A DNA stretch of 64,000 bases from Sabellastarte sp. h YS-2021 (Eukaryota; Annelida; Polychaeta; Sabellida; Sabellidae): NCBI GenBank assembly GCA_964017235.1, contig OZ024929.1, positions 112,205,793 through 112,269,792 on the forward strand. The letters are read 5' to 3'. Every line of letters begins with the position of its first letter. Within the stretch, counting starts at the first letter, position 1. Positions 13,625-55,707 of this stretch are shown here, piece by piece. A program made the position numbers and the translations under genes. The notes under the pieces are model-generated. The model saw only the letters and a list, made by a program, of their open reading frames with translations. It did not search any database and was not told where the DNA came from.

Positions 13625-13862
13625 AGGGGCCATGGTGGCAGAGTGGCAACACTCTCGCCTCCCACCTCTGAGGCCGGGGTTAGGTTCCCAGAAAGGCCTC
13701 AAGTGGGAAAGCTGGTAGTTTTTTGCCATTGGTCAGCAGTTTTACAGTACAGAACCCTGACGAACTGTATGTGCTGGTTTCTTCTGCCCTTCCAACTACC
13801 CATCGTGATGTGACCTGTACAGTGTTGAAAGCTATGTAAAACCCCAAATAAATAAATAATTG
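13625..13862 (+). mobile_element. SINE-1, full-length
   Basis: A tRNA-like head with A box (tggcagagtgg) and a B-box-like segment, a shared body, and a tail accccaaataaataaataa. It is flanked by target duplication aaacaagtg (13616-13624 and 13863-13871). The 5' start ggggccatggtgg matches the other copies. Confidence 0.92.
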
Positions 13863-15699: not shown

Positions 15700-17058
15700 C
15701 CCCAATTAGTGCTTCAGGGAGGGGTTACCCAAGTAATCTCTAGCCTCTGAAGATAAAGTTCGGCCAATCACTTTAGAAACACAATATATCAGAAATTATC
15801 ATTGTGTAAGACATACCATCACATTAACCATTGTAAACATTACTTAGTGACTTATTTTACACTTCAGTATACATAGTTTTTTCTGTTTTCCAAAATTTAA
15901 TCACTTCTTCCTTTTCTTTTAAACATTTTCTTTTAAACTCGGGAAAGATAAATTTTCAGAAGAAGAAAGACAAAATTTCAGAAAGATTGGTTCAACACTT
16001 TTGGAGTTATCACGAATACACACAGGCAGACAAATATACTCAAACAATAATAACCTGGTGGGGGTAATAATTGCAGTAATAATCATAGCCCAGTATATTT
16101 TAAAACCTACCAAACCAAATTTGAATGTAAAAGTCTTGCACAGAATCCATATTAGGGTGTCTATATATTTACAAGTGCTAATGTGTGTGTGTGTTTTCTA
16201 ATAAGTTGTGGAGAAATGATTTTTCATAATAATTTTCTGAACCAGAGAAAGGCGTAAAAATAATAAGACTCAACTTATATTCAATTTACAGCTTGTTTCA
16301 AAAGATTTGCAACTGTGTATGCCTAGAGGGATCCAATGTTTAAGGTAGTTTTATTTTCTGGTTTAATTAATGCTTAATCAATGTCATAGACAAAAGTTCT
16401 GATGCCTTGTAATAATGTAATATTCAGACATTTGACAGCTTATCTTTAGAAAAGAATAAAAATCATGGAAAGGTAATTGAATTTACACCAGTAATTTTTT
16501 CATGAATTCCACATATCTTCAAACTCAGTGGAAGTGTTAAAACTATTTTGTTCCGCAAAGATCAGATTTAATGGGGACAAACAGGTCGCCACACCATTAG
16601 TCTGCATTATACTGATTTACCTAATTATGGCTACCCAACCTCTTTGCAGATGTGAGTCTCCAAATGAGAATTTCCACAAAATTGCAAATTAGTTTCCTGT
16701 AATAAAATTGTGCTCTTTTTGACAAATTGGAAACCAAGGTTATGGCAAATATCGCCCATGTAATTGTTTATGAATGCTAAGGAAAATTGAGAATAGGAAA
16801 GTTTTTTATGTGAGTCAAGGCCGCTATGTAGACTTAAAATTTCATTACTTGGATTTAGCAAATTACATTTTGCTGTAATACATTCGATGTGTTTGAACCT
16901 CAATGGGCTGAGTTCACAACTGGAATTTTATGGCATATAACCACTTGGCTCTGCCCCCGGAGATGTTAAAACCCACCTCGGAACAACTTGTGTGTGTTTC
17001 ACAAACAGACTGTACTAACATGACCTCAGCAATTGCAAAGGATGGGGTGGTGACAATA
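15700..17058. other. Non-coding stretch left of YR retrotransposon
   Basis: No supported gene. The only pattern is a dispersed-repeat-like ggttcaacacttttgga segment near 15,985-16,035. Confidence 0.5.
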
Positions 17059-17063
17059 CCCCA

Positions 17064-17447
17064 ACAGTTCCTCGAGTACCAGTGGCCAAGTGAATTAATG
17101 GAAAGTCAACCGGCTCGTTGACCCCATATGACCTTGAGGATGGGGACAAAGGTCAAAACAGCATTGCGGTTATAAAATTTTATTAATCATTAATAACACA
17201 TGTCTACACTAGCTGTATTTACAAACCCAACAGTTCAATAGTTACACATAGGGTCACCTTAACTGAGGCACAGTTTAGACTACCTTAACAAAAGGAAAGG
17301 AGGAGAGTTAAGGTTAACTTAAGGACAATTTGGAAGATAATAGAGTGCCTTACGGAAAGGTGACCCTAACTGATATAAATTGAAGTGTACTGAAGCCTTA
17401 CATGAGGGCATATAAGTTAAAAGTTATGAAGGAGTACATTTCACCCA
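17064..17447 (-). repeat. B2 terminal repeat of YR retrotransposon
   Basis: 384 bp, matching B1 (19,271-19,654) at all but four positions by direct comparison. It marks the 3' end of the element in its own orientation. It contains an inverted pair agggtcacctt (17250-17260) and aaggtgaccct (17357-17367). Confidence 0.92.
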
Positions 17448-19107
17448 TGTGAACATTACAAACTATAAATTGTTTAACATCACTGAAAATGCTGTAAAAT
17501 CTGACTAGAACACATAATGTTTTAAAAGGAGTGTTATAGATTATGGTGAACTCGAAAACATAGTTAAAGGCGAATAGTAATAGTTATGCCAGTACTGAAG
17601 TAAACCCTGTACAAGAAGGTAAATAGTTACTAACTAGAACAACAGTATGGACTAAAATAATTACTTAGTAACAAGCAACGATAATTACAGTTACATACAA
17701 ACTATTTCAGAGTAAATCACAAGAAGTCTTAACATAAACCTTTAATCCTCTTGCAGTACAAGTAATGCGAATTCATGAGCAATGTTAACTATCTTGTCAA
17801 ACTTAAATTCAACATTATACTCAACTTGAAACAAGGACAGAACTGAAGGCGAATATGCAAGAATGGTTATGATAGTACTGCAGTAACCCTGTACAAGAAA
17901 TATAAAATAGTTACTGACTAAAACAACAATATAGACTAAGATAATTACAAGTAATTAGTATGTACTAATTCAGTTAATATACACTGATTTCAGAGTAGTT
18001 ACAAGAATCTCAACATAAAAAAAAAACAATTTTGCTTTTTAATCCCTCTGAAATACAAGTAATGAAAGAAATCTACAACAACCACACCATTTACAGTGAA
18101 TGGGCATTCAATTCGTACTAAAGACGACACAGAAGTAGTTTTCACAATGTAATGGATACAGCAATAGCTAACTAGTTGAACCGTGTCACACCAGCCCCGA
18201 GCGAGCACTGCTTCATTGGGGCGCATAATGAGGTGACAATAAAAATTTTAAGCTTACATGTACACAACGACGGGTCCTAGGCGGCTGGCGGACAGCCTGG
18301 GCCCAACACAAACTACCCTCATTTATGCAACACCTCAGTAATAGAGTACACTTCAACTCACTGTAACACACTAATTCAAAGCAATTACCTCAGTTACCTA
18401 AGACATACACTCAATGCTGAGTGGTACATTACAACAGTGGAGTGGCAGTAACAGTCACTGTGCCAGGTAATGTGATCAACTAGTGACATGATTGACTAAA
18501 ACATGATTGACTAAAACACAATGTAAGCCACACCATCACAATTCTACATAAAATAATACCTAATCTTGGCTGAGCAAGACCAATTACACTAACTTTTATG
18601 AATCAATGAATTCGAGCCACTGTACTGTGGGAATTTTAGTCAAGTCCATTTGAGAAATTGAAATAGCTTACACCAGGGTTATACCCAACTGCTCCTGCTA
18701 CCCAAGGAGCTCCTTCTCAAAGACTCAGAGCCGCCCTAAAGGAACTGAGCAGTACAGCCCCTAGTCCATCTGAACCTTAGACTCAGAGCCAGTAACGGTG
18801 GAGCTAATCAACTGACCATAAAAATGGTGGACATGAGCCAAGCACTGTTTACATTTGGGCTTAATAAGCCCAAGCACACAGATGGAATCACGACCTAACA
18901 GCAAGCTTGCTCTGGTAGCAGCAGCATGGCCTTGCTCCAACCAAGCTGTTCTGTTTAAAGTGTATCCTGGTACCTGCAAATACAGTAAATACAACTGAGT
19001 ACCAGATTCAATAATACAGTGTCTTCCAACACATGCAACACATGACATACAATTGGTACCACATAAATTCGTGTATAGACATGGGGATGGGATACTACAT
19101 AGGGTGG
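17448..19107 (-). other. Spacer between A2 and B2
   Basis: 1.66 kb inside the retrotransposon, downstream of the recombinase gene. About 17,571-17,770 is repeated in diverged form at about 17,848-18,070 (shared blocks: ggcgaata, ccctgtacaaga, atagttact, acaagtaatg). A minus-strand frame at 18,761-19,048 (95 codons, open further upstream) is Cys-rich at its start (MSCVACVGRHC) and has a CKQC pair later. I do not recognise it. It may be a small accessory ORF or chance. Some PAT/Ngaro-type elements carry additional ORFs, but nothing here shows a known domain. Confidence 0.6.
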
Positions 19108-19271
19108 GTAAAATTTTTGATGTGTTTTGTCCGAATCCAAGAGTGTGGCGCGAAATTCAAATGAAAGCTGGCTTTTATAGTCACAGGCAATGAAGCATTA
19201 AGAACCACAATGCATTATTCTAGACTGGTACCAGAACTGAAGGTTATGGCCATAAGGTGGCCATATCCCCA
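19108..19271 (-). repeat. A2 internal repeat of YR retrotransposon
   Basis: 164 bp, identical to A1 (24,399-24,562) except at two positions. It directly abuts B1, forming the internal B1-A2 block. Its inner end carries the palindrome tatggccata followed by a second ggccat next to cccca, plausible recombinase-binding and crossover sequence. Confidence 0.92.
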
Positions 19272-19654
19272 CAGTTCCTCGAGTACCAGTGGCCAAGTGA
19301 ATTAATGGAAAGTCAACCAGCTCGTTGACCCCATATGACCTTGAGGATGGGGACAAAGGTCAAAACAGCATTGCATTTATAAAATTTTATTAATCATTAA
19401 TAACACATGTCTACACTAGCTGTATTTACAAACCCAACAGTTCAATAGTTACACATAGGGTCACCTTAACTGAGGCACAGTTTAGACTACCTTAACAAAA
19501 GGAAAGGAGGAGAGTTAAGGTTAACTTAAGGACAATTTGGAAGATAATAGAGTGCCTTACGGAAAGGTGACCCTAACTGATATAAATTGAAGTGTACTGA
19601 AGCCCTACATGAGGGCATATAAGTTAAAAGTTATGAAGGAGTACATTTCACCCA
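19271..19654 (-). repeat. B1 internal repeat of YR retrotransposon
   Basis: 384 bp copy of B2. It begins 20 bp after the recombinase stop codon, so the coding part and repeat are tightly packed. Together with A2 it would template the B2-A1 junction of the circular intermediate. Confidence 0.92.
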
Positions 19655-19673
19655 AGCCCCAAAGTATAAGTAG

Positions 19674-20684
19674 TTAAGAGGCAGACAACTTAGATCTGAA
19701 CATATTCGCAACCTGCTCACCAGCATCAGCAGTGTCAGTGATATACCTCCACACACAGTCCGAGGTCCAGGTGCCATGTTTTTGAATATTTTGCAAAGTA
19801 ACATCATTATTGAAGGCAAAAGTGGCACCTGAACGTCGGAATGTGTGAAAGGTAAGACCAGCCTGGTGCAGGTGCAGTTTTTCTGTGATCATGGCCAGAT
19901 GGCGCCTAACTTTGTTGTCAGTTAGAGGGACCCATTCAGTGGCTACTTTACACTGGAACAGAGGGAGATTGGCCCCTTTGGGGGTGAGATCCAGCAAGTT
20001 CTTAATAGCAACAACAGGACAGATACTAGAATTAGGGATTCTAGGAACAGTTATCAACTTGATCTGATTGTTAGTCTGCATGGTCTTAGACCACTTCAAT
20101 ATCAGGACCAATTTGTCAGACCTCAATATAACATCACCCCTTGCTAAATGTTTTAAAGGTGAAAACTGGGCTACAGTATGGGGTACCAGGTTAGATAAAC
20201 GCAAGAAAGAGAAAAAACTAAGCAAATACAAGGCCTTAAAAACCTGGCCCATGTAAGTGAAATCACATTGACAGGCAATTGCCTTTAATACAGGTATGTC
20301 AATAATACGTTTTAACTTAGCATTAAGTGGAGCATGCATCTGCACAGCTTTTTGATAGTACTTAAGACGAAAATCAGAGAAACAAGCAACATCCAGGCCT
20401 AAAATTAGAAACTTGGTTTTAATAGCAGACAGATAATTGGCCATTTGTGGCTGTTTGACCCCATTAAATTGCAAACATTCTAGAAAACAAAGCAATCTTA
20501 AGGTGGTCACCTGGTGAACATTCCAAGACATGAAGGCCACAAAAGCAAGGAAGGTCCTGAAGAGTGATGCATAGGCCTTCTTTGTGGATTCTGAGAAGGC
20601 ATGTGAAAGCCTGGATGTTGCAAGCTGAGATAAATGACGTTCCAGTGGTAATGCACCTACAACATAATGAACAAGAACAGTGCT
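19674..20684 (-). CDS. Tyrosine recombinase of YR retrotransposon
   Basis: Integrates the circular DNA form by site-specific recombination in the nucleus. The frame is open for 336 residues from just after a TGA at 20,685-20,687 to its own stop. The first ATG (20,538-20,540) would give 288 residues but would cut off a conserved-looking N-terminal part (SRLSHAFSESTKKAYASL) typical of the SAM-like/core-binding domain of these recombinases. Counting from that ATG, catalytic residues are Arg about 114 (FLRLSNLVP), H-x-x-R at 231-234 (FHTFRRSG), His 255 and Trp 258 (QKHGTWTSD) and nucleophile Tyr 266 (VWRYI). All key residues are present. It is in the same frame as the upstream RT-RNase H, so the natural product is probably one polyprotein, with the TGA being either a readthrough site or a disabling mutation. 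Confidence 0.9.
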   Translation of the reverse strand, partial: STVLVHYVVGALPLERHLSQLATSRLSHAFSESTKKAYASLFRTFLAFVAFMSWNVHQVTTLRLLCFLECLQFNGVKQPQMANYLSAIKTKFLILGLDVACFSDFRLKYYQKAVQMHAPLNAKLKRIIDIPVLKAIACQCDFTYMGQVFKALYLLSFFSFLRLSNLVPHTVAQFSPLKHLARGDVILRSDKLVLILKWSKTMQTNNQIKLITVPRIPNSSICPVVAIKNLLDLTPKGANLPLFQCKVATEWVPLTDNKVRRHLAMITEKLHLHQAGLTFHTFRRSGATFAFNNDVTLQNIQKHGTWTSDCVWRYITDTADAGEQVANMFRSKLSAS

Positions 20685-22502
20685 TCAAATACTTTGGTTA
20701 CAATACAATAACTCATCAGTAGTATGCATCCAGGTGACAGGATGAATCAGTGCCTGCAACTTAGAAACATCATTGACAGTTTCATGCCACCTAGACAATA
20801 GATCAGCAACTGGATTCATCTTGCCTGGAATATGAACTACTTGAATATCAATATTGAAGGCACTAAGCCAAAGAAACACATTTCTCGCATACATAGCCAT
20901 GACCCTATCACGAGTTTTACCAGTATTTAACACTGAAACAACTGCCTGGTTATCACACAGGATTTTTACCTTCAAACCAGCCCATTGGAGATGCCAAACT
21001 TTCAGGGCCACCAAAATATTAATCATCTCAGTATATGCTATGTTAACATCCTGCCAACTCTGAGGCAGAGGAAGTGCATACACCTGTGTGCCAAAAATGG
21101 CCCCAAGGCCGGACGGACATGCATCAAGATGGACAGACTGACTAGGGGCATAGTTAAAGAAAGACACACCATTATAGACTGATAGAAAAGTATTAAACCA
21201 ATTCAGGTCATTTTTAAATTCTTCAGTGACCCTAATTCGTTTCTCACCAATATTCTCTCGCAATAAAGTTAACATTCTATTGAGAAAGTACCTAGCATAT
21301 TTGATACACTTGGCTACATACAAGAGGGAACCTAGAAGGGATTGCAACTCCCTCTTTGTACAAAATGATTTTTTAACCCAATTTTGACACATACACTTTA
21401 TTGTTTCTAATTTTTCATTTGGTATTGAAACTGACAAATTTTCTGTGTCAACCTGGATGCCCAGGCAGGTAACTTTGGTACCAGGAGGTACTAGTTTCTT
21501 GGCACTAACTGTGAGGCCCAATTCATTCAATAAACCCTGTAATCTGGTGAAGGTTTGACCTATTTTCGAGGGGAGGGACACACACAAAAAATCATCAATA
21601 TAATTCCATATACTGTGGCCCTCCTGCCTCATAATGAAGCGTACTGCGTCTGACAATCTCTGAAGGATGGAAGACCCATGTTTGAACCCGAAGGGAAGCG
21701 ATCGATCGATAAAATAACCTTTCCAGTGAAGACCCAGCAGATCCAGGTCCCCAGGGTCAATTGGGACATGGCGAAAGGCCCTACTTATATCAATTTTGAA
21801 AATTTGACACCCTTTACCCAATTTCAGTACTTCACCGGTTATGTTGTCAATGGAAGGGTAGGTAAGGACAAAATCAGTGCCTAGATATCGATCATTGTCC
21901 ACCCCTGAGTTCACAGAATGGCCATGAGGCCAACTCAAGTCAATTATGACTCGCCTATTAGCTGAGGTACTTTTGTCCCGAGTCATGAAAGGGCTAACAT
22001 GCAAATTTTCGATAGGGGGGTTGGGAAATGGGCCCAACATGGCCCCGTGATTAAGTTCCTCCTGCAAATAAGTTGTGACATGATCAGGATACTCAGTGGC
22101 ACTTTTATGATTAATTTTATCAGAATTTGTGTCAAAATTTCGATCAAAATCCAAAGGAAAACCATATTTGATGAGGAGAGGCAACTGCCAGTCCCAATAA
22201 GTCGTTAAGTACTGGGCCCATTTTTCATGATTTAAATTAGACATAAGTGGTATTTGTAAACCAGCATAGTTATGTCTGCCATCTTGTCTCAATTTTTTGT
22301 GAAGTTCTAAAATATTTTTGCATACGGAATTATCTCCAGTATCATAGACCTGACTTTTCAGCCCATAAATGGGTATGAAGCCAAATAATGGTCTATTCTG
22401 TTGTATGCACAATTCATTTTCAGGGGCCCTCCTGGCTACCTGGATTTTGGATTTTTTAAGATTGGTTTGAATTTCCAGTTCATATTTGTCATCGTCCTGC
22501 AA
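20685..22502 (-). CDS. Reverse transcriptase-RNase H of YR retrotransposon
   Basis: Copies the element RNA into DNA. The open frame is 605 residues. RT motifs: motif A IFKIDISRAFRHVPI (Asp about 238), motif B RSLPFGFKHGSS (about 268-279), motif C NYIDDF (Asp pair about 303-304) and a following CLGIQVDT block. RNase H follows with LDACPSGLGA (Asp about 460), a Glu about 492, LCDNQAVVSVLN (Asp about 517) and VADLLSRW (Asp about 567), so all catalytic acids are present. No early AUG exists: the listed 5' codon is TTG and the first Met is about 87 residues in. It overlaps the preceding ORF by 67 bp, in the -1 frame. A canonical slippery run A-AAA-AAT lies in the overlap (A6 at 22,452-22,457). It ends in TGA, after which the same frame continues into the recombinase. 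Confidence 0.93.
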   Translation of the reverse strand: MQDDDKYELEIQTNLKKSKIQVARRAPENELCIQQNRPLFGFIPIYGLKSQVYDTGDNSVCKNILELHKKLRQDGRHNYAGLQIPLMSNLNHEKWAQYLTTYWDWQLPLLIKYGFPLDFDRNFDTNSDKINHKSATEYPDHVTTYLQEELNHGAMLGPFPNPPIENLHVSPFMTRDKSTSANRRVIIDLSWPHGHSVNSGVDNDRYLGTDFVLTYPSIDNITGEVLKLGKGCQIFKIDISRAFRHVPIDPGDLDLLGLHWKGYFIDRSLPFGFKHGSSILQRLSDAVRFIMRQEGHSIWNYIDDFLCVSLPSKIGQTFTRLQGLLNELGLTVSAKKLVPPGTKVTCLGIQVDTENLSVSIPNEKLETIKCMCQNWVKKSFCTKRELQSLLGSLLYVAKCIKYARYFLNRMLTLLRENIGEKRIRVTEEFKNDLNWFNTFLSVYNGVSFFNYAPSQSVHLDACPSGLGAIFGTQVYALPLPQSWQDVNIAYTEMINILVALKVWHLQWAGLKVKILCDNQAVVSVLNTGKTRDRVMAMYARNVFLWLSAFNIDIQVVHIPGKMNPVADLLSRWHETVNDVSKLQALIHPVTWMHTTDELLYCNQSI

Positions 22503-23296
22503 TTCTGCAGTTGTATTACTGATAAGAGTATCAACAGTGACACCACCCCCTGACAGTCAGTATTTGTTTGTTGTTTGCTACCTTGGACAGAAACCTCAGT
22601 TTCTCCGGAACCAGAGCCCTCTTTGGTCGCCCCAGTGGAAGGATGACACGGTTTCGAAGCAATAATTTGGTTTTTCTTACCTTTGTTGAGGTTTCTACCA
22701 TTTTTCATGAGTACAGACGCTTCATGACACGTTTGACCCTCAGTTTGACGCACAACATTGTTTACATTGCCAGGTTGACACTTATTGACACTACTGAAAT
22801 CAATATCAGCTAGAACTGCATATGGATTACTATGTACAAATTTATTTTCAAACTTGTGTTGACATTTACTATGAACACTACTGTCTGTAACACGACACAT
22901 GTGTGACCCACATTGACTTTCCCACATTGCACGTCGTACGACAGACTTTTTTGGACTTTCAATATTAGAGCTGTAAGGCTTGGCAGTTTTGCCCTTGGCC
23001 ATTTTCACGTGCTGTGGAGTTAAATTCAGACATTTTACATTTGGTTGGCTACTCTGGCTACTCACACCACGAGGCTGACCTCTTTTTGCAACCTCAGAAT
23101 AAGAAACATTAGGTTTGACAAATCTACATAATGATTTTAACTTTTCAATGTAATCCCTATTTAACAAGTGACTATTTACAAAGTTACTGTTATAACAGTA
23201 CCTGTCAGTAAAGCTTTTAACCTTAGGTACCTTGTCAAAAGCCACTGCACTACTGCAGTGGCTACTCAGTTTTTTTAACCACTTTTTTGGGTACAC
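22436..23296 (-). CDS. Middle ORF of YR retrotransposon, function unknown
   Basis: 286-codon frame between gag and RT, overlapping gag by 22 bp and RT by 67 bp, in the -1 frame relative to gag. It opens with GTG rather than ATG, and no AUG lies near its start, which suggests it is translated by frameshift from gag (A6 run at 23,283-23,288 just before the gag stop). Content is basic and Ser/Asn-rich with scattered Cys/His (for example SKCQHKFENK) and no protease or other known domain that I can see. It probably forms the N-terminal linker of a gag-pol polyprotein. Continuous openness between two real genes and the compact overlaps support it as genuine coding sequence. Confidence 0.7.
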   Translation of the reverse strand: MYPKKWLKKLSSHCSSAVAFDKVPKVKSFTDRYCYNSNFVNSHLLNRDYIEKLKSLCRFVKPNVSYSEVAKRGQPRGVSSQSSQPNVKCLNLTPQHVKMAKGKTAKPYSSNIESPKKSVVRRAMWESQCGSHMCRVTDSSVHSKCQHKFENKFVHSNPYAVLADIDFSSVNKCQPGNVNNVVRQTEGQTCHEASVLMKNGRNLNKGKKNQIIASKPCHPSTGATKEGSGSGETEVSVQGSKQQTNTDCQGVVSLLILLSVIQLQNCRTMTNMNWKFKPILKNPKSR

Positions 23297-24285
23297 GTGC
23301 GACTAATATGGGGACCATCACAGTGCTCACATGCATGTCTGTAAAACTGACCTGCAGTTCTGTGATGGGAGACAAACCTACAGGTGCCCTCCTGGAAAAA
23401 TTTGCAAATAACCCCATTTTTTGACACAATATTTTTGGTTTTCTTAAATCCAGCACCTTTAGAAGCTGTGAACTGGCCTGTGGTTGAGTGCCTCTGGGCA
23501 TGAGCCCTACGGATACGATCCAGTTTTTCAGTGTCAGACCACTGTAACCTATCGGCCTCCATGTTTGTTAAAACGACCGCATGAGAAGCTTTAGCTGACT
23601 CCCAAGAGAAATCAGAGGCATCTTCCATAAGATTTCCCAGGTAATCCAACATGGATGCCCTGGCTTCCCCTGATTTCTCTTCTTGAATACAGCGTACAAA
23701 ACCAGACACCCATTGGGTAATCGTTAGATCATCATAAGAGGGCCTGGACTTCCTATTTCCGGTCAATATGAAATGTTGGGGCCAGTCCACCACCCTTTTA
23801 ACCGGAACCTCCCCAGGACCACCCCTGTGAGACTTTAATCTACCTCTAGTGGCTGATTCGTTAATTTGGGCCAGTTCTGCTAATCTTTTGTCAACTTCAG
23901 CCTGAATTGAAGTGTTATTCCACAAGTAATTCAACGAAGGGACCACACTCTCAACGGTGTCTTCCGTATCAATACCGTGGCTCTCATTATTTTGAGTTGG
24001 AGGTTTACAGGCAGTAGTAACAGTTGCACTTGCCTGTTGAGATCCTTGTCCAAGTGCTGCCTCGGTACGCTGCACCCTCCTATCCATGGAATCCATCTTC
24101 TCGCCAAGCTTTTGAAGTTGGAGCAAGATTTGGTCGGAAACCGTAGCCACACCGACAGGATCCGTAGAGGGGGGTGCAGCGTCCTCCGCATCACTGGCCA
24201 AGGACTCACCCTCCTGTTGACACTTCTTCCCAACCGGTCTCGCATGCTGCAAGGTACATTTTGAACAATAAAACACTTTCGGCAT
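23275..24285 (-). CDS. Gag-like protein of YR retrotransposon
   Basis: Structural/nucleic-acid-binding protein of the element. The frame is open to 24,384, but I choose the Met at 24,283-24,285 (MPKVFYCSK), giving 336 residues and a 113-bp leader from repeat A1. An N-terminal putative zinc-binding motif C-x2-C-x3-H-x7-C (residues 7-22) is followed by an acidic, Ser-rich stretch, a short heptad-like helix (LQKLGEKMDSMDRRVQRTE), a conserved-looking central region (WPQHFILTGNRKSRPSYDD to WVSGFVRCIQEEKSGEAR), and a C-terminal Cys/His cluster (CKFFQEGTC through HACEHCDGPH to RTC), which fits the Cys/His-rich end of DIRS/Ngaro gag proteins. It ends in TAA at 23,275, just after a six-A run where a -1 shift would join the middle ORF. 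Confidence 0.82.
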   Translation of the reverse strand: MPKVFYCSKCTLQHARPVGKKCQQEGESLASDAEDAAPPSTDPVGVATVSDQILLQLQKLGEKMDSMDRRVQRTEAALGQGSQQASATVTTACKPPTQNNESHGIDTEDTVESVVPSLNYLWNNTSIQAEVDKRLAELAQINESATRGRLKSHRGGPGEVPVKRVVDWPQHFILTGNRKSRPSYDDLTITQWVSGFVRCIQEEKSGEARASMLDYLGNLMEDASDFSWESAKASHAVVLTNMEADRLQWSDTEKLDRIRRAHAQRHSTTGQFTASKGAGFKKTKNIVSKNGVICKFFQEGTCRFVSHHRTAGQFYRHACEHCDGPHISRTCTQKSG

Positions 24286-24398
24286 TTTTAAGAACTGAGC
24301 AGAATATAATATAAAATGAACTAAAAGACTAAAATCGATAAAACAAAATACGATAAAATAGTGTAAAATACATGAACAATACAATTCAGCTCAGTCCT

Positions 24399-24562
24399 GT
24401 AAAATTTTTGATGTGTTTTGTCCGAATCCAAGAGTGTGGCGTGAAATTCAAATGAAAGGTGGCTTTTATAGTCACAGGCAATGAAGCATTAAGAACCACA
24501 ATGCATTATTCTAGACTGGTACCAGAACTGAAGGTTATGGCCATAAGGTGGCCATATCCCCA
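24399..24562 (-). repeat. A1 terminal repeat of YR retrotransposon
   Basis: 164 bp at the 5' end of the element in its own orientation, differing from A2 at two positions. It presumably holds the promoter. The outer boundary is the shared cccca (24,558-24,562), beyond which similarity to A2-B1 stops. Confidence 0.92.
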
Positions 24563-24954
24563 TTTTCACTTTCTTTTTTGTGTTTATGACTTGGGCTAAT
24601 ACGAGTACTCAAAGAGTGCCTACCTTCCAATGCCGTGGTTCTATGAATAACGTAGCTTGCAAATATTGAAGAACTTTAATAAAATAAACATTTTTTTATA
24701 AATGCAATAAGACAAAATCCAAAACAAATTATATTAAGCCATCTGGCAATTAAGGAACTTGTCACTAAGATTTCAGATCGAGATTGTATTGTAAACAAAG
24801 TACAAAGTTATTTATTGTATTGTATTTATTGTTACAATTTATTGTATTGTATATACTTTTGTTGTTTAACAGTATATTTATTTCTAGTGTAATGTCAGTT
24901 TCACTGTAGGACTCGCAGTGTTATTTGTTCCATCCCTACCATACAAGTATAGGC

Positions 24955-25500
24955 CTATTCTAATTCTAATTCGACTTTTATAGCGCTTAATCTCCACTGA
25001 GTAGTGGACTCTAAGGCACAACAAGACAATAGCAATATGTAAATTCAAAGTCCTGGGACAGAAATAGGTCCGCACCACGGAGAAGCCAAAAGAGAAAAAG
25101 AGCTAAGAAGGATAAGCCTTTGCGTAGAGATAGGTTTTGAGCTTCTTTCTAAAAGAGGCAATAGGGGGTGATACACAAATGTCTTCAGGAAGTGAATTCC
25201 AAACAGTGGGAGCATCAAAGGCAAAACTGAAACCAAACTGCTTAGTGGACTTGTGAATTGTAGGTTGAAATTTTGGTACATTAAGGAAATTGGCAACACC
25301 AAGCTCTCTAGTGACTGACATTTCCCCAACTGAAAGACAGGGTCTCGGGAGTGACCATTTATAAACGTCCCTGAGGTTCTTTAGCCTGACACTGGGAATA
25401 GGACCCAATGACAGAGGGCTGCTTTTTGTAGTGGTCATCTGAGCCACTAGGTATCTGCATGAACCTGTTGCCCAGTAGACCACAGCGGCACAGAACTCTT
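24955..25500 (-). mobile_element. LINE family A (CR1-like) 3' part
   Basis: 5'-truncated copy. The minus frame 25,483-25,103 encodes the end of ORF2: a GFSFAFDAPTVWNSLPED block, then ASFRKKLKTYLYAKAYPS and a stop. A short 3' UTR follows with a ctctaaggcacaacaa segment, a tatagcgctta block and a terminal attctaattctaatt repeat at about 24,955-24,970. Related copies are at 11,652, 38,102 and 51,980. The C-terminal pattern is typical of CR1-type LINEs of marine invertebrates. RT and endonuclease are missing. Confidence 0.85.
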
Positions 25501-26987: not shown

Positions 26988-29428
26988 TGATAAGATCTTA
27001 GGTGTTGAAACTGATGAAAATTTTCAACTTTGTTCATTCTATAAGCCACTTCGGTTTCTTCAACCTGGACACATAAGTTTTTGGGCTTGCGCAGGACACG
27101 TTTCATTACTTTTATGTTTCTTTAATGTCATCAACTTGTCAACCTTTTAAGCTAGGGATCAACATAAAGACATTGATTTGATGCTGTGTTACCAGGTTAT
27201 AAATTGCATTTTGCAATTTTAATTAATATGTAGTCAAAAATATTTAAAAACTAAACTAAATTTTAAATTATCTTGGGGTCACCTTAACCAAAGCACTCAC
27301 CATGTGTAATAGTGTGAGTTTAATTCGTGAAAGTTTATCTTTTATTGTGAGCATTACAGCATAGTTATTCACAAATTGGTGGAACAGAACAGTAAACATT
27401 GTACTGTAATCATGTCAATCACCCCTATTTGCAATAATCTGTCATCATTTCCCAACAAGGATATTTGCAGTTATCTTTTTTATATTTTAGTACGTAGTAA
27501 TACTCCCATTGATTAATGTGCAACATACACTGTTTCGGAGAGTTTATGCCATCAACATGTCCCAGTTTTATCCATAGCGTCAACACTTGGTAATCCATGC
27601 GTAGGACAGAGTCATTTAACCATTGTTTATAAAGATGGATTAGACTTTGTCAGCAAAAACGATTTGTTCATCCTGTGTTTGCAAGCTTTATACTTTGTGT
27701 TTGTTCTTCACAAAATGCAGGCAACATATTTCAAAATGAACATTTTCTCCAAAACCTTTAAAATATGAGATATTGTATTTGTTGAGGGTATTTTAATTTT
27801 TTTTCCAATTTGATTTACATTGAAACCTTTATTAAATCTGTTTTATAGAAAAATCTTTAAGGCCAAATACTTCAGGAACAAAGAAAGTTAAAAACAAAAA
27901 GGCAGACTGAAATTACAAAAATGCAACAGTGACCTTCAAGGTCTTGGTGGGTGTAAAAAAGGCAACTAGATTACATTTTGTCAGGCAAAATTAATTCACT
28001 TTGTTCCTGCATAGTTATTTTTAAAGGCTTTTAACCTTGTTGTTCAGCTACTTGTACCAGTGATAGTAAACAACCTCATATGTGATTATTGCATGAAATA
28101 TGCTGTGCTGGGTGGGGAGAATCCTGCATACAATCATGCATCTGATCAATTATCCCCAAAACGTTAAGGTTTGTAAAACCACCCTAAATGTGAAACAGAA
28201 GAGGTGTACTGTTGGGCAATGTAGAAGTGAGTGAGTATTATATTACTTGTGAAGCTCCCGGTCTCTTTTCTTTAGTTGGATATCATGTGAACCCTTTGCT
28301 GTCCCCACCGGAAGCTTATGTCTTGGGGTGTGTTCATTTGTTTCTGCGTTCTATGAGTGCTTTCTAATTTTTCCATTGTAATGGAGTCTGCCACTGATTG
28401 TAACATAAAGTTCGTGATACAAGTAGATCTGTTTTCAGGGCCAGTAAATGGTTTTCAAATGTACAAAACTTCTGTGAATGGACAAGATTTTTCTAGAGCA
28501 AGAGTCATGTTTTCATCACTTTTCTTGTAGCTAACTGATTTCTACCTTATACACAAGTTAACTATATGTTGACAATTCCTATGTAAAAACTATAAAGAAC
28601 TAATCTAATCTAACCATCCCATTCCAGCTCCTAATTTTTGTACCAATAGAGTCTAAAGTACAGAAATATTCATCATAGTTAAAACTTCATTAAGGTATAG
28701 GACATGTGTGTTTTACACTAAATTCACCAAATCTCAGACTTACCTTGGATATATTTGTATGTAAAAGTTGAGCATAAGACTTGGCTAAGACCTTTTTGAA
28801 CATGGCCCCTGAGAAGCCTGGAACCAAGAAATATACTCTAGGAGTCAGCCGTGAAATTGTTACAGTCAGAATGTTGTTTTTGTTTGCTCAAAACCCTGTT
28901 TTGTTCATTTTTAATGGGGTCAATCATTATTTCCCCTGAACAGTAAAATTTCCAAGCCAAGGGGTCCCACTTTCAGGCCCCCTATCAAAATCAAGGTACA
29001 GTTAAAAATAATTGGTTTTGCAGTTATATTTAGGGGGGTTGTGTGTAACCAACCCACCTATTAGATTGATGTGTCCGACGTCTGTCTGTCTGTCCGTCTG
29101 TTCGTCAACATTTTCATTTTTGAACTCTAAGTCAAAAAGGCTTTGTCCAATCAAATTTAAACTTGGCAGGGAAATAGATCACCATCAAAGCTAGGTTCCT
29201 TTTCAAATAAGTGTAATTACATTTGTTCGTTTGTCCGTTTTCTGTCTGTTTGTATGTCCATTAACATTTCCGTTTCCGGGCTCTAACTCAAAAACGCTTT
29301 GTCCGATCAAATTCAAACTTGACAGGGAGATAGATCACCATCATAGCTAAGTTGCTTTCAAAATTGGTGTGATTTCGTCTGTTGGTTTGTCTGTTTGTCA
29401 ACATTTTCATTTTATTGTGTTAATAGAT

Positions 29429-29601
29429 CCTATCCAATGGACAATTGCTAAACCGGTCGGCGCAGACCGGCCCGCCAAACGCCAGAAAAAGACGTCCTGT
29501 GTTTCCACCGGCTGGCCGGTCCCAGTACTGTGCATTCGCCAGGTGGCGCATGGTATTTACTTCCTGTCTAGACAACATGACGTCATAGCATCTTTTTCGT
29601 T
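29429..29601 (+). repeat. Left inverted terminal repeat of DIRS element
   Basis: 173 bp, inverted match to 35,485-35,657 with one difference by direct comparison. It contains the palindrome tgacgtca (29,578-29,585), the consensus CRE site, within the likely promoter of the element. Confidence 0.95.
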
Positions 29602-30530
29602 TGGCGTGTGTACTGTGCGAACGTGTTTTCAACAATCTCCAGATATTTTAAGGAAAAGTGTGCATTATGACGGATTTTACACCTTAATTGCAAATAATTT
29701 ATTGTAAAAGTGTTACCTACATATCAAGCACGGATATACATCAAGAAATCTGCTGGAAACGCTCCCTAGTTGACTCAATTTAGTGTTGATGATAGGGCAG
29801 TAATCTACGAGAAATATGAAGGCAGCCATTTTTCTAGTTTCCTCCCATTCAACAATTGTGTTGTTAGGGGCAGATCGGCAATATTTAGAAATATAATGGA
29901 ATGTACTACTTACAAGGTATTTCTATCCGTGTTTTTTGTTTGAATGTACCTGCTGTAACCTTCCAGCTACAATCACCATAGAAACGTCTTTTCTAGTACA
30001 CTACAAATAGAAATCACGGGAAACTTCAATCTACGTAGTTTTGAACACTGTAAAGAAGGAATTCCCCAAGCAAGATGCATTCTTCATCTTCAGAGCGCAC
30101 TGGTACCGACTTCTCTGCTGTATAGCATCAATCACACCAGCCTAGCTCGATTATTTAGTGTTTTTCATCAGAACTTCATATCTACGACATAGAAGGAATT
30201 TCACTCTCAGTCCCACCCTTATGGACCCGGCACGTGTGTCGGTAGTAAGGGCAGTGGATGGCCAGGACACTGGTTTGAGTGCACAGCCGGCTGAGAAGAA
30301 CTGTCATTAGCATTAGTTGACCGGCAAGCTCCAGTTCAACCGACTTCACAATAGAAGGTGATATCAGTCCCTCCCTTGCAGACCCGGCTTTGTTGTCGGT
30401 AGTGGGGGTTGTGGATGGCCAGTTTGCTGGTTTTATCACGAAAGAAGAATGATTTTCATCTACACATCTACAGAATGCACTGGTCCAGGCTTCTCTGTTT
30501 TTAAAGCATTAGCCGACCGGCCAGTTCAAA
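29602..30530 (+). other. DIRS leader, no ORF
   Basis: No gag-like protein is readable. From about 30,205 a segment with cagacccggc and gtcggtagtgggg appears (30,211 and 30,369), the first diverged units of the array that continues to about 31,060. Confidence 0.6.
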
Positions 30531-30534
30531 GAAC

Positions 30535-31060
30535 GCGACCTCTGACGTCATATCCAGTCAGCCAATCGCGTGTCCCTCCGACCAATCACGAAGCAGGTCA
30601 TGTGTTTTCACCGACCAGCAAGGTCGGAAGTGCGTTCTTCAGAACTCACATGTACTGTGACTACAGTCCCTGCTTTGCAGACCCGGCCTGGTTGTCGGTA
30701 GTGGGGTTTTGTGGACTGTAAAGTTGCCGGTAAAGCTTCACACAAAGAACGCGAATACTGACGTCATCTCCAGTCAGCCAATCGCGTGTCCTTCCGACCA
30801 ATCACGAAACAGGTCACGTGTTTTCACCGACCAGGAAGGTCGGAAGTGCGTTCTTCAGAACTCACGTCTACTGTGATTGCAGTCCCTGCCTTGCAGACCC
30901 GGCTTCGTTGTCGGTAGTGGGGTTTGTGGATGAGCAGAATACTGCGCATTTGCATGTTTAAGTATCACAAAAGAACGTCACAACTGACGAGCTCCAATCA
31001 GCCAATCGCGTGTCTTTCCGACCAGCAAGCTGGTCACGTGACGCACCGAACACCAAGTGT
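30535..31060 (+). promoter_or_regulatory. Tandem promoter-like array in DIRS leader
   Basis: Units of about 217-223 bp. Starts of gccaatcgcg are at 30,561, 30,777 and 31,001. Each unit groups a CRE palindrome tgacgtca (30,543 and 30,769; eroded in the third), gccaatcgcg, ccaatcacg (first two), and an E-box cacgtg (aggtcacgtg at about 30,811; tggtcacgtg at about 31,031; mutated to catgtg in the first), then the gcagacccggc and gtcggtagtgggg block. The grouped consensus sites resemble a Pol II enhancer or upstream promoter module. No expression evidence is available, so function is inferred from motifs alone. Confidence 0.45.
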
Positions 31061-31189
31061 TTCTAATATAGCTCACAAGGGCTTTCCCAGCAACTGTCAA
31101 ATCTACAAGTAAGACGTGGGATTAAAGAAATGCTTTACTTAATGGAGGAAACCTACAGCAAGCTGAATTCAACACAAAAGATAGTTGTA

Positions 31190-31635
31190 AAATTGCTTTA
31201 GCAACTATTTACAGAGTGTACTGACTGGTGCTGGCTACACAGCCTTGTACACTTGCTTCAACAACTGGTTACAAAGTGTACCGACCGGCTACACAGCCTT
31301 GTACAGTTGCTTCAATAACTGGTTACAGAGTGTACCGACTGGTACTGGCTACACAGCCTTGTACACTTGCTTCAACAACTGGTTACAGAGTGTACCGGCT
31401 GGTACTGACTGCACAGCCTTGTACACTTGCTTCAACAACTGGTTACAGAGTGTACCGACTGGTACTGGTTACACAGCCTTGTACACTTGCTTTAACAACG
31501 GGTTACAGAGTGTACCGACTGGTACTGGCTACACAGTCTTGTACACTTGCTTCAACCTACTGGTTACAAAGTCTACTAACAGGGTGTTGGCTACACAGTC
31601 CTTACTGTACAGTGCTTCAACCCAACTGGTTAAAT
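31190..31635 (+). repeat. 60-bp minisatellite, about seven units
   Basis: Tandem units of 60 bp (one of 54 bp) built around ttgtacacttgcttcaacaa, ctggttacagagtgtaccg and actggtactggctacacagc. Because 60 is a multiple of three, two frames stay open for over 390 bp and give 20-residue repeats. Starts are GTG/TTG and no conserved protein is seen, so I treat these as by-products of the period. Confidence 0.9.
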
Positions 31636-32099
31636 AAAAAAAAAAAAGGCTGGCTAAATATAGACCAGTAGCTGTCAAAATTCATGGATGACCCCAGCCT
31701 GCCAGTTTTTTGTTACAGAGAATTACTAGTTACAGTAAAGTACCGAGTATGGAGCCCGGGTACCGGACAGAAATACCTAAGGTTTATTTGGTTACAGAGA
31801 ATTCTTAGACCAGTCAGTGGTTTTGGTGATATGACAGGTATATGACAGTGTCCCTTATCACACCTCTCAACAACCTGTTATCGGTGCTGGACTTGACTGG
31901 AGAGATAATAAATTTTGTCATCATCTCCGGCCAGGGGTCAGACATCTCACAAATGACAATTGCTCTGTAAATACTGCACCTTGCAGGCTGCTGGCCCGGG
32001 GCGAAGAGTCTATTAATGTGAAAAGTTGTGTCAGCCCCACCGGACCACAATAAGAACAGAGAGACTGTTAACCTGGATCATTGTCTCCAGACCGGACCA

Positions 32100-33275
32100 G
32101 TGTCCGGAGGGACAGAAAATGTTGGTCAGAATACCAAATGTGGCACACAGTCTGCCTATAGGTTCCAGACTAAGCCCTTTTTGGGAACGTAGGAAGCCTT
32201 GGGGGCTGGACCCTAGGTAGTATAACTGTTGAAGGAGGGATACCTATGTCCATATACCTATACAAGAACAATCCAGGAAATGCCTGAGATTTCACATCCA
32301 AGGTCGGGCATACCAGTTCAAGGCCCTGCCATTCAGTTGGTCCACAGCACCTTTGGAGTTCACCGTGATACCAAAGCAGGTGAAATGGATAGCCATACAC
32401 AAGGATTTAAGAAGCCACCTGTACCTAGATGACTGGTTGGTGAGAGCCAGATCCCACCAGGCTTGTCTCCAACATACAAAGGAACTAGTAAATAATGTGT
32501 CAGCAACTGGGTGGCTGATGAACTTAGAGAAATCAGAGCTGGAGCCCAAACAAGACTTCGATTTTGTAGGCTACCAGTTCAACTTCAGGTCTGATTGGTT
32601 CCGACCGACTCTGGACTGGTGACAGAACCTTCAAGAGACTGTTAAAACTGCTATCCCTACCGGCTTGCCCGGTCCGGGAATTCATGTCCTTGATAGGTTA
32701 CTAACATCTACAGAAAAGCATGTTAATCTAGGCAGACTTCATATGAGACCCATACAGTGGTATCTCAAAAACAACTGGAGGGTATCCAGAATCACTGCAA
32801 AAGGTGATCCAAGTCCCCAGGTCCCTGCACCCCCATTTACAATGGTGGCTGAAGGAAGACAATGCACTTACAGGCCAACCACTACACCCAATAAAACATG
32901 CTCTGCAAATATTTACAGACGCATCAATAGAAGGGTGGGGCGCTCACTTAGATGAGCACTTGGCAAGAGCAACCTGGTCCCCTCTGGGAAGCAAGTTGTA
33001 TATAAACTATCTAGAACTTAAAGCAGCCTTTCTGGCTTTAAAAGAGTTCCAAGACCTTTGCTCAACAAGATAGTACTTGTAGCTACTGACAACACCACAA
33101 TAGTGTCATGCATAAAGGAAGGAGGAATGAGGTCGGGCCCACCTTGTGCCCTAGTATGGAGAATCTTGACCTGGTGTACCAGGAAACAAGTGACTCTAAG
33201 CACGACACATTCCAGGCCGGCCTAATGTGGTAGCAGACAGGCTGTCCAGACTAGGCCAGACCATCCCAACAGTGG
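32100..33275 (+). pseudogene. DIRS reverse transcriptase-RNase H, broken
   Basis: Recognisable DIRS-1-group RT: an N-terminal LPIGSRLSPFWERR block (about 32,150), then a jump that removes the motif A region with its catalytic Asp. After it come GRAYQFKALPFSWSTAPLEF (motif B), YLDDWLVRA (motif C, about 32,420-32,445) and FDFVGYQFNF. A stop at about 32,620 is followed by RNase H pieces in other frames: FTDASIEGWGAHLDE (about 32,915), INYLELKAAFLALK (about 33,010), ATDNTTIVSCIKEGG (about 33,080) and NVVADRLSRLGQ (about 33,230). At least three frame changes and the missing motif A make it inactive. Confidence 0.88.
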
Positions 33276-33745
33276 TTTCTCCTCCCACATGTCTTCCACT
33301 CTATGCAGTAGGTGGCACCGGCCCAAAATAACTTATTTGCCACGAGGTTCAACAACAAGTCGCCTCTGTTTTGTGTCACTGGTACCGGATCCCCTGGCCA
33401 CAGCAGTGGATGTGCTCAGTCGGCCATGGTAGGATCTAAAAGCATACACCTTCTCACCATCAGCCATATTGGGCAAAGTGGTGGAGAAGTTGCAAGACTC
33501 CCCATGTAAGAGAATCATTCTGATTGCTCCGTTTTGGGATCTAGTGGCCATGTCCAGCCACATCCCGCTGAGCCTGCCCAATCTGTCCAGCCTGTTCACA
33601 ACCATTCGATCAGATCCCTCACAGAAATCTGACAAATCTTAATCTCCATGCAGGGCTCCTAGAGCCTCAGCAATCGAGGAGCAGGACTTGTCTGAGGCAG
33701 TGGCAGCAAGAATTGAGGCTCCTCAAAGGGGGGTCAATCAGATCA
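33276..33745 (+). pseudogene. Linker between RNase H and YR in DIRS
   Basis: Frame fragments such as LFATRFNNKSPLFVS (about 33,340) and KRIILIAPFWDL (about 33,515) fit the region of DIRS pol between RNase H and recombinase. They fall in different frames, so the segment is degenerate like its neighbours. Confidence 0.6.
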
Positions 33746-34980
33746 GTCTATGAGGCAAATGGGTCATTTTTACCAAGTGATGTATCATTCATCAGGTGGA
33801 CTTCGGGCACCACCTGTAAAGTCAGTTTACTTCCTTAGGTACCTGTTTCAGGACAGGAAGTTGCAGCCCAGTACCATTGATGGTTACAGGTCAGCCATTG
33901 CTGATAGTCTAGAAATTTGCCCATCAATGTTAGTAAGGATGAAAATCTCACTCGTCTCCTGGATAGCTTCCACTGAGACAGACCCAAAGGCCGGAGGGTA
34001 ACCCCTTCCTGGAACCTCTCCCTGGTTTTTGCACCAGCTGACAAGGTTCATTTTGAACCAATTAAAGGCCTCCTTGAAGCATTTGACCTTCAAGGCAGTT
34101 TCCCTCTGGGCCCTGGGTTCGCAAACAGCCCAGCACCATTGATGGTTATAGGTCACCCATTGTTGATAAACTGGAAATTCACCCTTCAACATCAGTAAGG
34201 ACGAAAATCTCGCTCGTCTCCTGGATAGTTTCCTCAGAGACAGACCCAGAGGCAGGAGTGGCATACCCTTCTGGAACTTCTCACTGGCCGTGCACCAGCT
34301 AAGACTCCTTTTGATCCAATCAAGGAGGCCCCCCTTGAAGCATTTGACCTTCAAGACGGTATTCCTCTTGGCCTTTGGGTCGGGCAAGTGCAAAAGTGAG
34401 ATTCATGCCTGGCAAAACTGATATATTGGACACCAATCCGATTGGTCAAAGGGGTCCCTGTATCCATCACCCAGCTTTCTATCCTAGAATCAGCTGGCCA
34501 TAGAGTGTCCAGTGTGGCCCCTGGGGTTATAACAGCCCTGGCCCCGACTCTGGATAGATCCCTCAAGTCTGACAGGTCCCTCTGTCCGGTCAGAGCGTTG
34601 TGCTACTATTTGGACAGGACCTCAGACATCAGGCAGAATAAGGAGGTGGTTTTTGTCTCCTTTAAGAAAGGTTTCAACAAAGACATCTCACCTGCCACTA
34701 TCTCCTCTTGGATCAAGCAGACTGTGATCCTATGTTATGAGCTCTCTGACCAGGGGGCCCACATTTAACATCAGGTTAAAGCCCATGATGTCAGGGCCTT
34801 TGCTCCTTCTAAGGCCTCCCAGTCGGGAGTCTCCTTAGATCCAATCTTGTCAGCCTGCCACTGAAGTCACAATACCTTCACACAGTTCTATATGAAGGGC
34901 GGTGCTTGGGCTGATTCAGAGCTTTACCAATTGGGCTCGGTAGTGGCTGCTCAGCAGATCCACAAGTGGCCCTTAGATTG
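33746..34980 (+). pseudogene. DIRS tyrosine recombinase, broken by duplication
   Basis: The N-terminal core-binding part is seen as YFLRYLFQDRKLQPSTIDGY (about 33,830-33,890). A segment of about 255 bp starting at cccagtaccattgatggtta is duplicated in tandem (about 33,868-34,125 and 34,126-34,380), repeating this part. The catalytic part follows from about 34,440: LCPVRALCYYLDRT (about 34,580), FKKGFNKDISPATISSWI (about 34,665), a stop at about 34,766, then VKAHDVRAF with the H-x-x-R pair (about 34,780) and HNTFTQFYMKGGAWAD with the probable Tyr (about 34,875-34,920), ending near 34,980. Frameshifts, the stop and the duplication disable it. Confidence 0.88.
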
Positions 34981-35331
34981 AGGAGATTTGTATATATGTA
35001 TAAACAGTTTCTTCATGTACATAAGAATTAAGTGTGGCGTACTTCCTTTGGGAGGTTTATTTGCATTCTGGGACTGAACTCATCCCTCTCTTCCCCTACC
35101 TCAGAGCAGGTCTGCAAAAAAGGGGGGGTGACGGCGGTATAGCCCCGGGTAACCGGCTGCTGGCAACCGACCATGGCCTTGCAGGGTTTCCTGACCTTAA
35201 ACTCAACCCAGGCCTGGACCTATAGGTTTCCTGACGAAGTCAGCCTAGACCGTAGGTTAAAATTTGCTATTACTTGTGAGTTCACATAAGTCCCTAGTAA
35301 CTTACCCGCCAACCAAGCGGTAGTTATTCAG

Positions 35332-35426
35332 CAATTGTCCATTGGATAGGATGTATTAACGCAATAAAATTGCAAATTTAATAAGTAAATTAAATTTTTA
35401 TAAGTTAATACCCTATCCAATGGACA
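35332..35426 (+). repeat. Internal complementary region of DIRS element
   Basis: The first half is the reverse complement of the element's left end (29,409-29,447, about two mismatches). The second half is the reverse complement of the right end (about 35,643-35,703). The two halves overlap at aaaat, the complement of the shared atttt. This is the defining DIRS-1 feature and gives the predicted circle junction. Confidence 0.92.
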
Positions 35427-35484
35427 CACAAGACCCTCCCACCGACCCCGCTATCAGCTTACTAGGGGTCTAATAGTTTTAGAC

Positions 35485-35657
35485 AACGAAAAAGATGCTA
35501 TGACGTCATGTTGTCTAGACAGGAAGTAAATACCATGCGCCACCTGGCGAATGCACAGTACTGGGACCGGCCAGCCGGTGGAAACACAGGACATCTTTTT
35601 CTGGCGTTTGGCGGGCCGGTCTGCGCCGACCGGTTTAGCAATTGTCCATTGGATAGG
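35485..35657 (-). repeat. Right inverted terminal repeat of DIRS element
   Basis: Inverted copy of 29,429-29,601 with one mismatch. It is followed by a 46-bp AT-rich extension to 35,703 that is found, inverted, in the internal complementary region. Confidence 0.95.
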
Positions 35658-36154
35658 GTATTAACTTATAAAAATTTAATTTACTTATTAAATTTGCAAT
35701 TTTCAGACTCTAACTCGAAAACATTTTGTCCAATCGAACTCAAACTTGACAGGGAGATAGATCACCATCATAACTAAGTTGCTTTCGAAATTCGTGTAAT
35801 TCCATTTTTTTGTTTGTCCGTTTATAGGATAGATACAATTATGTAACCTATTATGTAACCTAGATTACAAGTTTTACATTTCTTAGCATCTCTCACACAT
35901 TTACCTTAACTGGGTGACCTAAAATTTCTTTCATTGTTTCTAAATTTAATTACAGCAATCACTAACCTTATAGCTGCCTGTGCAACCCGCCTTTTGGGGC
36001 ATCTTTGACCCTCTTGTTAAATATTTACCTTAATTGACCATATAAGCTGAAGCAAAACATATATAATAAGTAAGTTTTAAACCCTTTGCTGAAACATGTT
36101 AGAGAAGAAGCACAACTTATATCAAGTGGCAATTCATTGCAGAAACAAGGGAAC

Positions 36155-37384: not shown

Positions 37385-37915
37385 CCCTCCGGGTTTACAC
37401 AAGCCTGGATTTTTACTCTACCTTGGATTTCACAAAGTAGCTAAGTCTTAGCTTAGACTGAGTCTTAGGCTTAAAGTTAATTCCACCTGGGAGTGGGCTT
37501 AACTTTTGTTGAAAAAGACTCAAATATGGCCACCATCAACTTTTCTCGGCTTTAAATTTGGAATAGCTGAAAATAAAGCTTAAAAATATAGAACATCTTC
37601 CTAGAATAGTGTATGGAAATTTTTATGTGGTTACAAAGGTTTCGCATTGCAAAATATCACTTTTCCTGAGATTGAAAAAAATGTCAAACAAAAGATATAT
37701 CTCACCAGTAATATATTTTGAGTAGAAATAAATGATCACATGACACAAAAAACACTGTGGTCATTGGATAAATCAGTCAAATCTTGATCTTAGGTAAGAC
37801 GCTATTTCTGAATTCCACTGAAGCCTAAGACTTGGGCAAGACAAAAGGCTCAGATTTAAGTCTCTGACTCCCCCAAAAAGATCGACAATCTAAGAACCTT
37901 TGTGAAACTATCACC
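37385..37915 (-). mobile_element. Degenerate copy of the 565-bp inverted-repeat element
   Basis: Inverted relative to 45,955-46,519. Shared landmarks are gatttcacaaag, a cttaa/gactta-rich arm, a tggcc(a/g)cca segment beside acttttctc, a cacatgacac segment, and an arm ending cctttgtgaaac. Terminal GGGGCC is eroded. The counterpart in the right duplication unit is 42,800-43,325, so insertion preceded the duplication. Confidence 0.7.
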
Positions 37916-38101
37916 AGAGTGTGTTCATATGAAAACCTGTGCAAACTTCAGATGTTAAATTTATTTCTTGGAACTTCTTCTTGGTTTTATTCTGTGAATC
38001 ACTCAGTCACGTTGCGCTTTCAGTTCAGATTGAACACAGAATCATTGATCCAATCTCTAGAGCAATTGAACATATCACTGCTGACTTGTATTGGGATTTT
38101 T

Positions 38102-40358: not shown

Positions 40359-40592
40359 GGGGCCATGGTGGCTGACTGGTAACACTCTCGCCTCCCACCT
40401 CTGAGGCCGGGGTTTGATTCCCGGCACGGCCTCAAGTGGGAAAGCTGGTAGTTGCTTGCCGTTGGTCGGCAGTTAACAGTACAGAACCCTGACAAACTGT
40501 ATGTACTGGTTTCCTCTGCCCTTCCAACTACCCGTCGTGATATGACTTGTACAGTGTTGAAAGCGACGTAAAACCCCAAATAAATAAATAAA
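40359..40592 (+). mobile_element. SINE-1, full-length
   Basis: Head, body and aaataaata tail complete. The left duplication unit has the empty site at about 28,508-28,525 (ttcatcacttttc). Flanks ttcattacttttc (40,346-40,358) and ttcacttttc (40,593-40,602) are the imperfect target duplication. It inserted after the segmental duplication. Confidence 0.95.
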
Positions 40593-54044: not shown

Positions 54045-54060
54045 TCATCAAAGTTAAGAG

Positions 54061-55694: not shown

Positions 55695-55707
55695 ATAAGG
55701 GAAAAAA

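Follow-up and report, generated by a model that had tools for sequence, protein, structure and literature searches.

A Probable Ngaro-Type Tyrosine-Recombinase Retrotransposon with Split Direct Repeats in the Genome of a Sabellid Annelid

Organization of the element

The window analysed here is a stretch of 64,000 nucleotides from the polychaete Sabellastarte sp. h YS-2021 (assembly GCA_964017235.1, contig OZ024929.1, positions 112,205,793 to 112,269,792 of the forward strand), and it contains, from position 24562 to position 17064 of its minus strand, an element of 7,499 bp marked by two pairs of direct repeats. An earlier account of this DNA, hereafter the sequence-only reading, was silent on strand; the sense direction is that of the minus strand, on which all features of the element given below lie. 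Along this strand, the order is A1, gag, reverse transcriptase (RT)-RNase H, tyrosine recombinase (YR), B1|A2, a 1.66 kb spacer, and B2. The 5' split direct repeat A1 (24399..24562, 164 bp) is 98.8% identical to A2 (19108..19271, 164 bp), with 2 differences, while comparison of B1 (19271..19654, 384 bp) with the 3' split direct repeat B2 (17064..17447, 384 bp) gives 99.0% identity and 4 differences, reproducing exactly the counts and coordinates reported earlier. A2 adjoins B1, and the A and B repeats overlap by a single base, the T at 19271, which is common to both and forms the B1|A2 boundary. Blastn assigns E values of 8e-78 to A1/A2 and 0.0 to B1/B2, the latter across 399 bp, of which 15 bp are flank, and identity at such lengths is far beyond chance. 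The order and identity of the repeats bear out the earlier claim of a YR retrotransposon with split direct repeats arranged as A1...B1A2...B2. Judged from its sequence, the interval is very probably a single integrated copy of a Ngaro-type YR retrotransposon in an animal genome. Such an element is of a known type, without novelty in kind, and is ordinary save for a long additional stretch near its end.

Coding frames and conserved domains

Four open frames, a division that the sequence-only reading did not mention, occupy the region between A1 and B1: a gag-like open reading frame (ORF) of 336 codons from its ATG (ORF1, 23275..24285), a 288-codon frame termed ORF2 (22436..23302) whose overlap amounts to 28 nt with gag and 121 nt with the RT frame, an RT-RNase H frame of 623 codons (20685..22556), and a YR frame of 336 codons (19674..20684). 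When each stretch was resampled 1,000 times under a first-order Markov model and examined in the three frames of the sense strand, none of the four lengths was equalled (0/1,000 for each). The placement of gag, RT-RNase H, and YR between A1 and B1, as previously stated, is thus borne out by the open frames and, for RT, RNase H, and YR, by family matches.

The RT-RNase H frame matches Pfam RVT_1 (4.4e-9) and RVT_3 (8.2e-5), both above the cut-off, and its motifs, read by eye and then located by search, comprise YIDD at 21602 and RNase H motifs from 21128, 21029, 20957, and 20831. Against solved structures, the RT frame matched one polymerase chain (7sr6, E 0.0056, limit 0.1). An NCBIfam match of the same frame to a collagen-like repeat preface domain (0.0016, far below the cut-off) was taken as chance. 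The YR frame matches PHROG integrases (5.7e-7 and 1.7e-6) and, over residues 27-104, NCBIfam XerA at 3.3e-8, yet with 33.4 bits against a cut-off of 220; Pfam Phage_integrase reaches only 0.012, below the cut-off, and no solved structure was matched up to E 1. The motifs R (FLRLSN), HxxR (HTFRR), H (KHGTW), and Y (WRYI) were seen by eye in this order. These, together with YIDD and the acidic motifs of RNase H, we take to be the catalytic motifs that go by these names, and their presence in order agrees with the earlier statement that the catalytic residues are visible.

The evidence is thinner for the two upstream frames. The C-terminus of the gag-like protein appears Cys/His-rich by eye, with Pfam CCCH zinc-finger matches at 0.11-0.12 (below the cut-off), one PHROG match of unknown function at 0.034, and no NCBIfam match. 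ORF2 shows no recognised domain, its best family matches in Pfam and PHROG having E values of 0.21-0.22. On a codon score trained on gag, RT, and YR of the same element, for which the scores of these three frames themselves are consequently no test, ORF2 obtains 0.11 compared with 0.14 for another frame of the same stretch, which weighs against coding. The evidence for ORF2 as a gene is therefore mixed, with its length in favour and a codon score that does not single out its frame.

Classification among YR retrotransposons

According to excerpts of PMC4157794 and PMC9210276 (the papers cited in this text are drawn on for such extracts), Ngaro elements possess split direct repeats, carry the internal repeats downstream of YR, and contain no methyltransferase (MT). 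In the element described here, the repeats run A1 ... B1 A2 ... B2, RT-RNase H is followed by YR, and the YR frame ends at 19674, ahead of the start of B1 at 19654, so that the internal repeats lie downstream of YR. No MT was matched by Pfam in the four ORFs at E values up to 1, a search that a very diverged domain may escape. The same A1-ORFs-B1A2-B2 layout, with internal repeats after YR and the order gag, RT-RNase H, YR, is found in Ngaro-like elements of zebrafish, sea urchin, fungi, amphioxus, Xenopus (DIRS-53_XT), and Cafeteria. Differences from these elements include the extra 288-codon frame between gag and RT and the frame shared by RT and YR. An ORF for an SGNH hydrolase after YR, reported for amphibian Ngaro elements and not a general requirement, has no match in the one spacer frame scanned (131 codons). 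DIRS1-like elements also combine RT-RNase H with YR but are described with inverted repeats (PMC4157794, in the part cited); neither the inverted terminal repeats nor the internal complementary region of DIRS1 was found in the Ngaro-type element, and no inverted repeat of at least 40 bp (exact seed 14) occurs between 15000 and 27000.

The sequence-only reading had spoken of a PAT/Ngaro-type element. The assignment to YR retrotransposons with split direct repeats stands, whereas PAT fits less well. PAT-like elements (Pat1, Toc3, Kangaroo) likewise have split direct repeats and a YR on an RT-RNase H retrotransposon, and they are described with an MT domain in the cited part of PMC4157794; since none was matched here, Ngaro is preferred. 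This test is not a strict one, because excerpts of PMC6681497 and PMC9210276 report MT in some DIRS elements only. A PAT-like element that has lost its MT domain would account for the shared repeat architecture, and a loss of this kind has been proposed for a Pat1 lineage in Caenorhabditis briggsae, while echinoderm and nematode forms of Pat1 differ in the placement of their internal repeats (both in the extract from PMC4157794). A zinc finger in gag is a feature of Pat1, and the C-terminus of gag, Cys/His-rich by eye but with CCCH matches below the cut-off, may point the same way, as does the restriction of MT to some DIRS elements in PMC6681497. Nevertheless, this origin is improbable, given ORFs without an MT match and published criteria that, read most simply, give Ngaro.

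Several points weigh against the reading as a single Ngaro-type copy. Structural features alone are called a poor basis for classifying such elements in the cited part of PMC4157794. The Cafeteria Ngaro elements, as excerpted from PMC8547959, are about 6-7 kb long, compared with 7.5 kb here, and are written A1-[ORFs]-B1A2B2, whereas A2 and B2 are 1.66 kb apart in the present copy. The gag, ORF2, RT, and YR frames are not continuous, no second copy of the element was found within the window by blastn or tblastn, and AlphaFold models made without an alignment reached mean pLDDT values of only 35.6 (YR) and 36.2 (RT) and were left unused. Finally, searches with the RT and YR proteins and their conserved parts returned no relatives in viral and genome contig collections, nor did tblastn of RT against phages. 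These misses say little about animals, because the collections searched hold viruses and prokaryotes. A degenerate RT motif scan of viral contigs gave two loci, both taken as chance: L001 has the motif in a stop-rich frame (tblastn E 1.5 for the motif itself), and L002 looks bacteriophage-like by its ORFs, judged by eye (best E 0.018).

Integrity and age of the copy

The description of the copy as near-intact holds in that it is nearly complete, but it requires a qualifier, as the coding region is spread over four frames with two -1 changes and one in-frame TGA. Passage from gag to ORF2 and from ORF2 to RT each entails a -1 frame change, while RT and YR lie in one frame divided by the single TGA. 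By eye, no canonical slippery heptamer was seen at the gag-ORF2 or the ORF2-RT step. GT/AG-like strings noticed by eye near the ORF2-RT and RT-YR transitions were left unscored, and splicing that would join the frames is not claimed. The first in-frame ATG/GTG/TTG of YR is located at 20540, past the start of the XerA-like match at YR residue 27, and a YR initiated there would miss part of the XerA-matching stretch, because the match begins upstream of 20540. The suggestion that the element is possibly still mobile goes beyond these observations; the two -1 changes and the TGA interrupt the series gag-ORF2-RT-YR.

The frame changes and the TGA might be bridged by frameshifting, read-through, or splicing. 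Alternatively, they may represent inactivating lesions that make this copy a dead relic, an explanation compatible with an element of Ngaro type and given a chance only somewhat short of even. In its favour are the two -1 changes, the TGA between RT and YR, the lack of a visible slippery heptamer, and the part of the XerA-like stretch that would be lost from a YR started at 20540. On the other hand, Ngaro-like families of Xenopus normally have frames that overlap, according to an excerpt of PMC9210276, the frames are open apart from the three breaks, and the repeats differ by only about 1.1%.

This low divergence is also informative about age. In the cited part of PMC6681497, the repeats are described as nearly identical at insertion. 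The repeats of the present copy diverge by about 1.1% (6 differences in 548 bp; 1.2% in A and 1.0% in B), two of the differences being adjacent and possibly due to one event. The small divergence indicates that the copy is young, as the sequence-only reading had proposed. Animal substitution rates are in the range of 1-5e-9 per site per year, which would place the insertion roughly 1-5 million years ago.

Transcription signals and proposed replication cycle

String searches located a TATA box, TATAAAAG, in A1 (24463..24470) and its copy in A2 (19172-19179), the only two occurrences of this string on the sense strand of 17000-24700. An AATAAA lies in B1 (19386..19391) and again in B2 (17179-17184), with two more in the coding part of the same interval (22841-22846 and 21397-21402). 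The former would be a candidate promoter element and the latter, in B1 and B2, candidate poly(A) signals. Because TATA lies inside A and AATAAA inside B, an RNA running from A1 to B2 would lack both end pieces. Both missing pieces are present in the internal B1|A2 junction, in keeping with the scheme of split-repeat YR retrotransposons.

Observed in the sequence are the two repeat pairs, correctly ordered and almost identical, the signals in the appropriate repeats, and domains of RT, RNase H, and YR. The published model for the group would connect them in the following cycle, each step of which is taken over from that model. Transcription would start about 30 nt after the TATA box of A1 and the RNA would end after the AATAAA of B2, so that the AATAAA of B1 must be passed over for full length. 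Such an RNA would be devoid of roughly 120 bp at the start of A and 100 bp at the end of B, stretches that are contiguous in B1|A2. A copy of the RNA would be made by RT-RNase H, and its ends would anneal to B1|A2, regenerating the termini and yielding a circle with a B2-A1 junction. YR would then insert the circle into the chromosome by recombination at this junction, and no long duplication of the target would result. YR retrotransposons are experimentally little understood, and this copy, being young and having measurable A/B boundaries and two readable insertion junctions, could be used for testing the circle model and the target choice of the recombinase. Its value as a test case is increased by the candidate signals for promoter and poly(A), each of which lies in the repeat where it would be expected.

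The A2-B2 spacer and the 3' flank

The long interval between A2 and B2 and the flank beyond B2 are the less usual features of this copy. Blastn and composition characterise the interval as a spacer of 1,660 bp (17448..19107) with 37.8% GC and an internal duplication (17567-17738 and 17846-18019) that, at 78% identity, is old. Insertion of the spacer after integration is unlikely, because its borders coincide exactly with the ends of the homology in A and in B, and by eye no duplicated target is visible. Variation in the split-repeat arrangement is on record, as the arrangement of an amphioxus Ngaro-like element is called distinct from others in an extract of PMC2632668.

A 131-codon open frame (18761..19156), at most a candidate coding region, starts inside A2 and extends into the spacer. 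Open frames of at least 131 codons on either strand of the spacer appeared in 3.9% of 2,000 resamplings. The frame, the only one of the spacer that was scanned, matches nothing in Pfam (limit E 0.1) or in PHROG (limit E 1). Its codon score is 0.06 (0.16 for the last 76 codons); the spacer taken as a whole scores between -0.04 and -0.01 over three frames. The frame may be a captured gene; chance gives a frame of this length at 3.9%, no family was matched at these limits, and the codon score falls between the spacer background and the genes.

With a TATA in A2 and an AATAAA in B2, the A2-spacer-B2 part could be transcribed by itself. This part might be a second, separately transcribed unit, either as an extra small gene of this Ngaro lineage (the 131-codon frame) or as a non-autonomous circle joined to its autonomous counterpart through the YR of the element at A-like sites; this is unlikely, with a small chance of being correct. 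Slightly less probable still is the more specific proposal of two distinct circles, A1-ORFs-B1 and a non-autonomous A2-spacer-B2, that YR recombination linked head to tail at the A/B junction and that do not form one element. This proposal would fit the signals in A2 and B2, the single base shared where the two parts meet, and a spacer in which blastn detects nothing resembling the coding part. However, it is by the very order A1-B1A2-B2 that the group is defined, and A and B are equally diverged, as a single insertion predicts. Moreover, the internal repeats of nematode-form Pat1 lie upstream of YR (PMC4157794, in part), so that among YR retrotransposons there is nothing abnormal in an A2-B2 interval that is filled. 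A single Ngaro-type copy remains the preferred reading of the whole interval.

At the 3' junction, the flank at 17048..17063 is partly like the start of A, with 12/17 positions matching from 17064. At least 12/17 matches to the A start occur at 14 sites on both strands of the 64 kb, with A1, A2, and the 3' flank among them. Suggestive at one given position but seen only once and picked post hoc, this likeness might stem from the way in which the recombinase chooses its target; by eye, the left flank contains nothing comparable for the end of B.

Other features of the window

A decayed DIRS1-like YR-type element, with a coding part full of stops, occupies 29409-35703. It has inverted terminal repeats (29419-29601 and 35485-35665, 183 bp, 97.8%) and an internal complementary region in which 35366-35426 is inverted to 35643-35703 (61 bp, 100%) and 35327-35370 to 29409-29452 (44 bp, 93%). 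Its RT at 32233-32622 matches RVT_1 (9.8e-10), RNase H-like and YR-like pieces at 32747-33073, 33717-34001, and 34400-34768 were recognised by eye only, with no Pfam match, and tandem arrays lie at 31185-31603 (60 bp x 7.0) and 30527-30930 (216 bp x 1.9). A further RT fragment is present at 4180-4479.

Probably representing a short non-autonomous element, a repeat of about 234 bp is dispersed in five copies (13626-13859, 40359-40592, 41421-41655, 54056-54297, and 55461-55707) in both orientations, with pairwise identities of 88-95% and a shorter relative at 3985-4108. Two open frames at 25103-25498 and 37868-38404 share a similar C-terminus (WNSLPE/WNTLPD ... KTYLY.KAYP) and presumably resemble the tails of non-LTR retrotransposon proteins; the former has no Pfam match up to E 0.1. 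Scans of the window with Rfam at gathering thresholds and for tRNAs returned nothing. A GIY-YIG endonuclease domain at 52630-53301 (Pfam 6.5e-6) is, we assume, probably the tail of a Penelope-like element. An ANF-receptor ligand-binding domain at 61783-62229 (Pfam 1.6e-9), the only host-gene-like match among ten ORFs scanned, is probably an exon of a host receptor gene and, together with the GIY-YIG domain and the two further RT fragments, suggests an animal genome rich in retroelements.

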